A DNA stretch of 64,000 nucleotides, taken from Bacteroidetes bacterium MED-G17. Its GTDB lineage: Bacteria > Bacteroidota > Bacteroidia > NS11-12g > UBA9320. The notes under the pieces are model-generated. The model was not told the DNA's origin, did not search any database, and saw only the letters and a list, made by a program, of their open reading frames with translations. A program made the position numbers and the translations under genes. Positions 9,300-15,672 of the stretch are shown here, in pieces (position 1 is the stretch's first letter; every line of letters begins with the position of its first letter). The stretch is from assembly GCA_002457675.1 (NCBI GenBank), contig NTKK01000007.1, positions 1 to 64,000 on the forward strand, given 5' to 3'.

Positions 9300-10312
9300 T
9301 CGTTTTCAATCTGAACAGTTTTATAATAAGTACATATTTTTTCTACTTCTTTAAGGACTGGTGTATAGGTAAACGAATTTGCCTGTTTCAGTATTTTTTG
9401 ACCGTCAAACTTTCTATCTTGTACCGCACTTCGAGCATTTTCAGCAGAAAAATAGCTTCGTTTGCCTGTTATGGCCTCTCTTACTGCAAAGAGCCTCCAC
9501 GCCCATTCTGCCCTTCGAATTGTGATAGGAATTTGAGGCTTTTTAGTTCCTAATTGCTCTGCAATCACATCAAATATTTTTTTGAAAGGATAATTGTCTT
9601 CACTTAACAAGAACTGTTCAGTGCTTCTTTCATTAACCATCCATAAAACTGCTTTTGCTACATCAGTTGCCGTCACAAAACCGGTTGAGCCTATGCCATA
9701 AAATGGAAATTTTCCTCCGAAAAGCTTAAAAAAATGTGCTGTTCCAGAGCTCCAATCTCCAGCACCAATAATCAAACTTGGATTTATTATCCCTACTCGC
9801 AGGCCTTCGGCTGAAGCTCGATGAACTTCCACTTCTCCAAGATATTTTGACTTTGCATAATGCCCTTTGCCTTCCTCATAAAACATTGAGGACTCATTGA
9901 TCTCCATATGAGACTTAGCGCCTAAAGTACTCACAGAACTTACATGTAAAAAGTAATCCAACCCACATTCCAAAGCGTAATTGATAAGGTTTTTTGTTGC
10001 TTCTACATTAACTTCATAAAGCAGATGAGCATCTTTAGGATGAAATGAAACAACACCTGCAGAATGAATTACAGTCTTTACTTTGGTCAGTGTATCCTTT
10101 ATAATTTCCTCATCAAATAAGTCTCCTTGCAACCATTGCACCTTATTCAAATCTATTTCGTAACCAATAGAGGTGTAATAATCAGCTATAATTTCCAGCT
10201 GTTTAAGCGAACTACTAGGTCTTTTTAAAGCCACAAGCTCTTTTTTATCAATCAACATCTGGCAAACGATGTGTCCACCCAAAAAACCCGTTGCACCAGT
10301 TATAAAATACAT
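9296..10312 (-). CDS. NAD(P)-dependent epimerase/reductase of the extended SDR family
   Basis: A 338-residue extended short-chain dehydrogenase. The Rossmann motif TGATGFLGGH is at residues 5-14, VIHSAGVVSF near 88, and the catalytic S and Y-x-x-x-K are visible (SSVSTLGA; HYAKSKYLGE). The C-terminal half resembles 3-beta-hydroxysteroid-dehydrogenase or dihydroflavonol-reductase-like proteins, so the substrate is open. The stop overlaps that of rplY by 4 bp; the gene is divergent from the ureohydrolase-like gene. Confidence 0.8.
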   Translation of the reverse strand: MYFITGATGFLGGHIVCQMLIDKKELVALKRPSSSLKQLEIIADYYTSIGYEIDLNKVQWLQGDLFDEEIIKDTLTKVKTVIHSAGVVSFHPKDAHLLYEVNVEATKNLINYALECGLDYFLHVSSVSTLGAKSHMEINESSMFYEEGKGHYAKSKYLGEVEVHRASAEGLRVGIINPSLIIGAGDWSSGTAHFFKLFGGKFPFYGIGSTGFVTATDVAKAVLWMVNERSTEQFLLSEDNYPFKKIFDVIAEQLGTKKPQIPITIRRAEWAWRLFAVREAITGKRSYFSAENARSAVQDRKFDGQKILKQANSFTYTPVLKEVEKICTYYKTVQIEND

Positions 10313-10338
10313 GTGGATAAAATCAAAATAGAGTCATC

Positions 10339-10346
10339 TACTTTTG
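10339..10346 (+). promoter_or_regulatory. -7 element before the ureohydrolase-like gene
   Basis: TACTTTTG is an exact TAnnTTTG match, 13 nt before the ATG at 10360. The expected start of transcription would leave a leader of roughly 7 nt. No clear TTTG is seen at the -33 position, so this call rests on the -7 box and its location in a divergent intergenic region. Confidence 0.45.
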
Positions 10347-10359
10347 AAATTCAAAGGTA

Positions 10360-11439
10360 ATGATAGATTCTTTTTTCAGCACCATTCCAAAATTAGACCG
10401 ATATCCGAAACTTTCACTGGGTAACCAAATACTAGATATTCATGATTTTAAAGAAAACCCTGAAGAAGGTGTGGTGATTTTTAGCGTCGGACACGAAGTC
10501 AAGGACGCCAAAATGGTACGCGACTTTTTGTATTGTTTATTTCCTCAAAATATTTGGCCAAAAACATATGATTTTGGGTTTTTTCAGGTCAAGCAATTTA
10601 ACTCGATGAAAAATTTACAAGAAACCATAGAAGAACTTTATGCCTGTAATATGGTCGTTCTCGTGATAAACCATACCGATTTTGAAGAGGTAAATCATAC
10701 TATTTATCAAAGTTGTGAACAATTAAAACAAGACATTAGCCTTACTCAAATTTCTCCCAAAATTGAACTTGAGGAGAATTCTTTTCTACATAAAGTCTGT
10801 ACACACGAGCCAAACTATTTATTCAATGTTCGTCTACTTGGCTTTCAAAACTATTTAAATCCCCGCACCAATATTAGCACAGCAGAGAGTATGAATTTTC
10901 AATTAATGAGGCTAGGGATTTTAAAAGAAGATATTCAACAAGCAGAACCTTTTATTCGTGAAAGCCAAATTGTTTTTATGGATTGTAATGCTATAGAAAC
11001 CGCAAGTTTTCAGCAAAATAGTATGCACCTACCCAACGGGATTAATGGTTATGAAATGTGTCAATTGGCTTGGTTCTCTGGCATGAATGATATGATTAGG
11101 TGCTATGCGCTTATGAATGCACGAGGAAATTCAAATTCCCCCCAAGATCATCGTTTATTGGCTCAGAATATATGGCATTTTATAGAAGGGATGTCCAACC
11201 GAAAAAGTGACCATCCCAATTGGCATGAAAACTTTATGGTGTATACATGTCAAGTAGAACCCGAGGTAGTGCTCTCATTTTACAAAAGCAAAAGAACTGA
11301 TAGGTGGTGGTACAACATTCCAAACTTATCTGCTGGAAAGCCTATTTTTTTTCCTTGCAGTTACACGGACTATCATGACGCTTCGCATGGCAATCTTCCA
11401 AAAAGCTATTTTGGTCATCTAGAAAGATACGACTCTTAA
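10360..11439 (+). CDS. Arginase/formiminoglutamase-fold protein lacking metal ligands
   Basis: The 359-residue protein follows the ureohydrolase fold but not its chemistry. Where active enzymes have GGxHS, DAHxD and DxDxxDP manganese-binding motifs, the corresponding stretches read VLVINHTDFEE, SLTQISPKIEL and VFMDCNAIETASF, so most of the Asp and His ligands are gone. Related proteins in Bacteroidota are often annotated as formimidoylglutamase, but catalysis looks unlikely. The C-terminal half (HPNWHENFMVYTCQVEPEVVLSFYKSKRTDRWW) has no counterpart in arginases that I recognise. A structural or regulatory role is possible; none can be shown. Confidence 0.7.
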   Translation: MIDSFFSTIPKLDRYPKLSLGNQILDIHDFKENPEEGVVIFSVGHEVKDAKMVRDFLYCLFPQNIWPKTYDFGFFQVKQFNSMKNLQETIEELYACNMVVLVINHTDFEEVNHTIYQSCEQLKQDISLTQISPKIELEENSFLHKVCTHEPNYLFNVRLLGFQNYLNPRTNISTAESMNFQLMRLGILKEDIQQAEPFIRESQIVFMDCNAIETASFQQNSMHLPNGINGYEMCQLAWFSGMNDMIRCYALMNARGNSNSPQDHRLLAQNIWHFIEGMSNRKSDHPNWHENFMVYTCQVEPEVVLSFYKSKRTDRWWYNIPNLSAGKPIFFPCSYTDYHDASHGNLPKSYFGHLERYDS

Positions 11440-13956: not shown

Positions 13957-14034
13957 GGGCGATTAGCTCAGTTGGTTTAGAGCACCTGCCTTACAAGCAG
14001 GGGGTCGTTGGTTCGAATCCAACATCGCCCACCA
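13957..14034 (+). tRNA. tRNA-Val (anticodon TAC)
   Basis: The acceptor stem GGGCGAT pairs with ATCGCCC. The D arm is GCTC...GAGC, the anticodon stem-loop is CCTGC-CTTACAA-GCAGG with anticodon TAC, and the T arm is GTTGG-TTCGAAT-CCAAC. Unlike tRNA-Gln in this window, the CCA end is encoded (14032-14034). A TATTTTCG box at 13935-13942 is a candidate -7 element. The accessory-looking stretch follows directly on its 3' side. Confidence 0.97.
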
Positions 14035-14468: not shown

Positions 14469-14867
14469 TCATTTAACAGTAAAAACTACTTCATCACAAG
14501 GTTTAATTTTCATTTCGCCAGCTCTTATAATTTTATTCTGTTTGGTATTTATAATTTTATATTGATAGATACTCGCAACAATTTCATAGGTACACTCTTT
14601 AGCTCCTGATGGTGTAATTAATGTTGTAGCCTCATCACTCTCTGATTTCTTATCTTTCAGTTCAACAGAAATAGTTTCTTGCATTTTATTGAATATGCAA
14701 AAATCAGCAGTATTGGAATTGCATTCTGATTCAGTTTCTTTATTGTTCTTTTTTAAACTCATAATTTCAACCGCCACCTTAGCACCCTCCAAAATATCTT
14801 TACTAATCTGTGCTTTAGTGGCTATTGAAATAAAACAACAAAGGAAAGAGCGTAGAACTTTATTCAT
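14469..14867 (-). CDS. Secreted small protein of unknown function, third ORF of Cys-rich cassette
   Basis: A 132-residue protein with a signal peptide (MNKVLRSFLCCFISIATKAQ) and four cysteines in the mature part: ESEC, DFC, KEC and KPC. The C-terminal half (ECTYEIVASIYQYKIINTKQNKIIRAGEMKIKPCDEVVFTV) is probably beta-rich. It lacks the six-cysteine pattern of the two ORFs upstream but starts only 2 nt after the preceding stop, so it is very likely cotranscribed. I recognise no family. Lysine-rich, low-complexity stretches suggest fast divergence. Confidence 0.6.
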   Translation of the reverse strand: MNKVLRSFLCCFISIATKAQISKDILEGAKVAVEIMSLKKNNKETESECNSNTADFCIFNKMQETISVELKDKKSESDEATTLITPSGAKECTYEIVASIYQYKIINTKQNKIIRAGEMKIKPCDEVVFTVK

Positions 14868-14869
14868 TT

Positions 14870-15373
14870 TTAGTTAAGGGTAATTATATCATCTTTAATA
14901 GTGAAACTTTTTGTATTGCCGTTTCTTGGATTGTTGATAATTCCGCTTAGTGTGCAATCGCTACACTTATCACTATTGCAAAACGTAGCAACATATTTTT
15001 TGTATTTAGTACATTTTCCAGCAACATTACATTTACACTTCATGGAACTGCCTAAAGAATTACCGTCAATAAAAGGCGATTGGTTGTCTGTATCTGCTGG
15101 GACATCAAGGGCAACGATATAATCTCCAATATTTACAAATACAATTTTTCTATTATTTGGGTTATCTGAGTGAATTAAATTCTCCTCAACAAATATTAAT
15201 TCCTTTTCAACAATAGGGTGATTGTGAAAGGCAGGAGGTAGCATTACTTTGCCTTCTAAATCTGAAAAATCATTTATGCCTTCTACTTTGTCTTTTTCAA
15301 ATATTACCATCTCTACAACTTCCACGTAATTATCTTCTATTTTTATACTTGATTTTTTTTGCAAAGGTCGCAA
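14870..15373 (-). CDS. Cysteine-rich ORF, probable downstream half of a frameshifted or recoded gene
   Basis: This 167-codon frame has no signal peptide, and its only upstream start is a TTG at 15373, inside the end of the preceding ORF. The next ATG is at residue 22. Near its end it carries C-x-C-x(5)-C-x(10)-C-x(4)-C-x(2)-C, the same spacing as the ORF upstream, preceded by a similar beta stretch (IVFVNIGDYIVALDV against VYFTVPEGYTVIGV). A -1 shift in the A8 tract (15353-15360 on the plus strand) would join both frames into one secreted protein of about 267 residues with two six-cysteine domains. Whether this is programmed recoding, a phase-variable tract, a recent mutation or a sequence error cannot be told here. 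Confidence 0.55.
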   Translation of the reverse strand: MRPLQKKSSIKIEDNYVEVVEMVIFEKDKVEGINDFSDLEGKVMLPPAFHNHPIVEKELIFVEENLIHSDNPNNRKIVFVNIGDYIVALDVPADTDNQSPFIDGNSLGSSMKCKCNVAGKCTKYKKYVATFCNSDKCSDCTLSGIINNPRNGNTKSFTIKDDIITLN

Positions 15374-15672
15374 CTCACCATATTACAACTATATTTTCCC
15401 AATGCATAAGCTGGTTCGCACCCTTCGCCACCATCTTTACACATACATCTTACCGAACCATCTGTTCCTCCATTGACAAATGCTTCACTTTCGGTTACGC
15501 CAATGACGGTATAACCTTCAGGAACAGTAAAATAAACGGTGTTATCTACTTCGTTAAATTCTGTACCTTCAGGAAAGTTGTATCGATTAAATGTTGGGCT
15601 TTGTGCTTTACTGCAATTTGTAGTAAACAACATTCCAAATGTTGCCACCACTAATAAAAATAGTTTATTCAT
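15343..15672 (-). CDS. Secreted six-cysteine domain protein, upstream half of paired ORFs
   Basis: The first ORF of the cassette encodes 109 residues beginning MNKLFLLVVATFGMLFTTNCSKAQ, a signal peptide whose Cys20 could act as a weak lipobox. The mature part is a short beta region (FNEVDNTVYFTVPEGYTVIGV) followed by C-M-C-x(6)-C-x(10)-C-x(4)-C-x(2)-C and a stop a few residues later. The spacing could serve disulfides or metal binding; nothing decides which. It overlaps the next ORF by 31 nt in another phase, with an A8 run just before its stop. Two Crp/Fnr-like palindromes lie upstream. No family recognised. Confidence 0.65.
   Translation of the reverse strand: MNKLFLLVVATFGMLFTTNCSKAQSPTFNRYNFPEGTEFNEVDNTVYFTVPEGYTVIGVTESEAFVNGGTDGSVRCMCKDGGEGCEPAYALGKYSCNMVSCDLCKKNQV

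Follow-up and report, generated by a model that had tools for sequence, protein, structure and literature searches.

Slippage on poly-A runs is known from tssM of Citrobacter rodentium, where transcriptional frameshifting occurs at an A11 run (PMC4256274), and in many genomes selection against slippage is visible at runs of nine nucleotides (PMC1088944). The gene described here lies in a 64,000-nucleotide stretch of DNA from Bacteroidetes bacterium MED-G17, the whole of which we call the window. It resembles tssM in that a poly-A run marks the point at which a truncated and a full-length form diverge. Unlike the A11 run of tssM, the window run is A8 and its full-length product is putative, and the conservation of the run expected of poly-A slippage genes was not found among the relatives. 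These relatives also recall CTnDOT-type conjugation operons, with which several are associated, and GG-leader RiPP precursors (TIGR04149), in that one precursor-like peptide shares a hairpin. Unlike the Tra families of CTnDOT-type operons, however, the six-cysteine protein has no Pfam or NCBIfam match; the window copy in particular matched no curated Tra family and does not lie within a tra operon. Unlike TIGR04149 precursors, members of the family have Sec signals and lipoboxes, lack a GG leader and match no RiPP model in NCBIfam. At the window, NCBIfam gave no match to TIGR04149 or lanthipeptide leaders for ORF1–3, and no maturase lies beside the gene. No described lipoprotein encoded between traG and traI was found in the literature searched.

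At 14870–15672 on the reverse strand, the window holds one gene of about 267 codons, interrupted by a length change in the A8 run unless slippage restores the frame (Table 1). The two open reading frames, ORF1 and ORF2, share 31 nt at this run but are read in different frames, and the ORF1 frame is lost after module 1. ORF2 lacks a separate signal peptide, and the first start codon available to it is a TTG within ORF1. The preliminary description had given both frames the spacing C-x-C-x(5,6)-C-x(10)-C-x(4)-C-x(2)-C. Indeed, the match is exact, with C-x-C-x6-C-x10-C-x4-C-x2-C at residues 76, 78, 85, 96, 101 and 104 of ORF1 and C-x-C-x5-C-x10-C-x4-C-x2-C at residues 113, 115, 121, 132, 137 and 140 of ORF2. 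The similar beta stretch reported before each cysteine set corresponds to hydrophobic stretches that are predicted strands, and the signal peptide assigned to ORF1 was recovered, with either a lipobox-like TTNC at residue 20 or a signal peptidase I site after KAQ. The window copy accordingly retains an export signal, two modules with a hairpin before each, and twelve cysteines; we regard this anatomy of one gene encoding two exported modules as close to certain. The context is ordinary housekeeping, with tRNA-Val (13957–14034) on one side and a histone-deacetylase-like gene on the other, and no mobile genes were seen in the window neighbourhood of the gene.

Table 1 Features of the interrupted gene and the ORF that follows it, in window coordinates.
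Feature	Position	Strand	Description
ORF1	15343–15672	-	109 aa; 5' half of the gene, with the signal peptide and first six-cysteine module
ORF2	14870–15373	-	167 aa; 3' half of the gene: linker and second six-cysteine module
ORF3	14469–14867	-	Small exported protein; start 2 nt past the ORF2 stop
Signal peptide	15601–15672	-	ORF1 residues 1–24, by sequence inspection; predicted helix 4–16
Module 1	15355–15573	-	Hairpin PEGTEFNEVDNTVYFTVPEGY and six-cysteine part; Cys codons 15361–15447
Module 2	14954–15151	-	Hairpin RKIVFVNIGDYIVALDVP and six-cysteine part; Cys codons 14954–15037
A8 run, site of the frame break	15353–15360	-	Coding strand 5'-TTTGCAAAAAAAATC

When the joined protein was searched against the order (108 genomes), a relative was identified in one genome (G078) that aligned over residues 27–267 without stops (E = 1.9e-62, 43–44% identity). 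This relative is a single 293-aa ORF (L004:1498–2379) on contig DIUJ01000050.1 of Bacteroidetes bacterium UBA6161; ORF1 aligns with its residues 1–125, and ORF2 is 44% identical to its 3' half. A second close relative (L031, genome G1099) likewise has both halves in one continuous ORF, a state found in the relatives but not in the window copy. The UBA6161 junction reads TGT AAA AAA TCA, an in-frame A6 where the window has A8. The single continuous frame of the relatives and the A8 in place of an in-frame A6 indicate that the window gene was split by a homopolymer length change, and the earlier reading as two adjacent genes is not supported. In the tree, the window copy groups with L004 and L031 (100/99) on a branch of 0.88, about twice that of its sister (0.41), which fits relaxed constraint. 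ORF2 has accumulated no additional stop or frameshift. Most likely, the window organism has this gene in an inactive state or makes only the secreted one-module form from it.

Profile searches returned about 20 further members, scattered sporadically over Bacteroidota. Members occur in other orders (G108, G560 and, with two copies, G142), and partial forms comprise a C-terminal half (G191) and a single module (G824). The gene is present in one of 38 genomes of the window's taxonomic family, that of the window itself, in two of 108 of its order, and in 20 of 398 of the order of G142; a search of genome contigs returned only UBA6161, on the same contig as L004. No relative was found among viral contigs, phages or plasmids. 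Three candidate members (L005, L009 and L016) were rejected as chance or lipoprotein-signal matches.

The family alignment contained 20 rows, made up of 18 intact relatives and the two window halves. Conservation at nearly every one of the twelve cysteine positions reaches at least 90% of the covering rows, against about 20% identity elsewhere, and the profiles of module 1 and module 2 match each other (hhalign probability 94.5%, E = 8e-8). Cysteine conservation at this level of identity, together with the match between modules, places the pattern beyond chance; with the export signal, the match supports the original proposal of an exported six-cysteine module present twice. Mature proteins mostly have exactly 12 cysteines, and most relatives carry a lipobox at the N-terminus. 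A few members have a charged stretch after the cysteine, such as CKKDD in L034, which appears to resemble the K-(D/E)2 signal for surface export known from Capnocytophaga (PMC5080379). The copy in G1071 (L045/L050) no longer has the cysteine part of module 1, which is kept in its near relative in G1127 (L039). A member ORF in G108 (L021:6319–7152, reverse strand) has no signal peptide and is immediately followed by an ABC transporter gene.

That no known family was recognised at first sight was borne out by searches against known families. None of the 20 members matched a Pfam family, and NCBIfam gave no family match for ORF1–3 or the members scanned, in both cases beyond resemblance at the level of signal peptides; PHROGs yielded nothing convincing, and the profile had no convincing match among PDB sequences. 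The family is sporadic and unnamed, exported, found in Bacteroidota, and typically built of two homologous modules.

An AlphaFold2 (AF2) model of L004 computed with the family alignment is mostly beta (pLDDT 83.6, pTM 0.77). In both modules the strand order is a hairpin, the CxC strand, a second hairpin and a last strand, and a single-module model of window ORF1 gave the same module (pLDDT 80.9). Foldseek searches at E ≤ 0.001 left both the whole L004 protein and the ORF1 module without a match in the PDB, and the whole protein without one in a viral library. Of the outcomes that the preliminary description named as refuting its reading, a profile hit to a known family did not occur, and, as regards superposition of the two domains, the modules share their strand order.

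Clustering of neighbouring genes, the survey of other Bacteroidota proposed with the preliminary description, revealed no partner common to the whole family. In four genomes (G943, G729, G1114 and G1060), however, the member immediately follows traG and precedes the next tra genes, and in a fifth (G1142) it lies just downstream of a CTnDOT-type conjugation operon; the tra neighbours match TraG P-loop, DUF4133, CtnDOT_TraJ, Transposon_TraM and DUF4138. G729 and G1114 belong to different genera and carry near-identical copies, indicating that the gene moves between species. Two changes on the tree are required to account for the conjugation label. Most members, including that of the window, are away from tra genes. 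In two of the conjugation operons the six-cysteine gene is followed by the gene of a second small lipoprotein (L057:8745–9128 and L065:7804–8169), the former having no Pfam match. In UBA6161, 300-nt direct repeats that are 93% alike (L028:8151–8450 and 10132–10431) bracket the copy and overlap helix-turn-helix genes, one on each side of the family gene. By inspection, the copy in G1099 has transposase-like genes on its flanks.

Resemblance to GG-leader precursors was seen at two further loci. A RiPP-like precursor with a GG leader in G175 (L027:6476–6841, reverse strand), which scores below the TIGR04149 cut-off and lies near lanthipeptide-type enzymes and a C39 transporter, contains the family's first hairpin, LPEGTEMVEQGSVIYFTLPNGY (LPEGTE..VIYFTLPNGY), at 16.9 bits, whereas the best of 999 shuffles scored 8.7. 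In G142, one member is immediately followed by a GG-type precursor-like ORF whose core is Cys-rich (9949–10149); in this cluster (L022:8857–16491) there are also genes for an outer-membrane barrel protein, for a radical SAM/SPASM maturase and for a C39-type ABC transporter.

There is a substantial minority chance that the break arose as an error of sequencing or assembly, the gene being intact: homopolymer differences of one nucleotide are frequent among such errors, ORF2 is otherwise undamaged, and an intact two-module form is the usual state among relatives. However, 22 comparable runs (A/T of at least 8, G/C of at least 6) lie inside intact ORFs of the window, with no other split gene seen, which lowers the chance of such an error while leaving it present; the doubled branch length also speaks against it. 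Alternatively, slippage of RNA polymerase or the ribosome on A8 could give both a one-module ORF1 product and the full two-module protein. In line with this, the run sits exactly at the module boundary, ORF1 alone would stop just past a complete module, a one-module relative is known (L019), the ORF2 frame is still open, and a -1 slip on A AAA AAT would join the two frames. Yet the run is not conserved, with an in-frame A6 in UBA6161 and differences in other members, A8 is shorter than the length at which selection against slippage shows (PMC1088944), no stimulating structure was detected downstream (z = -0.79), and 19 other A/T runs of at least 8 sit in intact window genes; we consider slippage improbable. 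A programmed ribosomal frameshift was also considered and is disfavoured by the same lack of a stimulating structure.

That two separate one-module genes and ORF3 form a real secreted cassette is scarcely credible. ORF1 and ORF2 are both open and ORF3 follows closely, but the full-length relatives are single ORFs, and ORF2 lacks a signal peptide and first starts inside ORF1. ORF3 is an orphan whose mature part contains four cysteines; no relative turned up among the order's 108 genomes, and it is missing next to the closest relatives, L028 and L053. The position given earlier for a third small secreted ORF was correct, and ORF3 is probably co-transcribed with the split gene; it is not part of a conserved cassette, and the 'undescribed system' built on it is not upheld. 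The preliminary description also left the modules as either disulfide-stabilised or metal-binding. We favour the former, and the modules are probably disulfide-stabilised. Extra cysteines are often paired (C41/C67 in both L042 and L044), as expected of disulfides. Metal binding of a metallothionein-like or Fe-S kind would be suggested by the CxC and CxxC motifs, and neither DsbB nor VKOR was found in the window's genome; the export signals and lipoboxes, the beta-hairpin setting, the paired extra cysteines and the presence of VKOR in some hosts, UBA6161 included (4 of 20 member-carrying genomes), make it unlikely. The occurrence of VKOR and DsbB by itself did not distinguish between disulfides and metal.

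Taken together, we lean towards a split gene for an exported two-module, disulfide-locked envelope protein borne by mobile DNA, an account that we consider the probable one overall. The intact protein would leave the cell by the Sec route, and most members would be lipidated and held in the outer membrane. Two small beta modules would make up its fold, with three disulfides locking each; on biochemical grounds the disulfides are the weakest step, given the distribution of DsbB and VKOR. The protein may have an accessory role in the envelope, in binding or in structure, and would travel with mobile DNA; in one lineage, where it is encoded between traG and the next tra genes, it may serve the conjugation machine. 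The patchy distribution in the family and order and the near-identical copies in G729 and G1114 support spread by mobile DNA. Against this account stand the location of most members away from conjugation genes, the housekeeping surroundings of the window copy, the lack of a DsbB or VKOR match in the window's genome and of VKOR in most genomes with members, and the possibility that the break, with no further lesion in ORF2, is an assembly error. An envelope-accessory function, taken by itself, is plausible but falls slightly short of an even chance. Very unlikely, in our estimate, is a bolder version, in which the protein is an undescribed outer-envelope component of conjugation with a new disulfide-locked fold, captured by the chromosome in several lineages, and in which A8 toggles between one- and two-module forms in the window organism; recipient contact or entry exclusion may be examples of its role.

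These results add an exported cysteine-rich family that is absent from Pfam and NCBIfam; for its predicted fold, Foldseek returned no PDB match. What had looked like a new cassette is a split gene, which calls for caution in reading homopolymer-rich assemblies. Some conjugation operons of Bacteroidota hold an uncharacterised gene that is amenable to knock-out, and the traG-linked members are those most worth an experiment.
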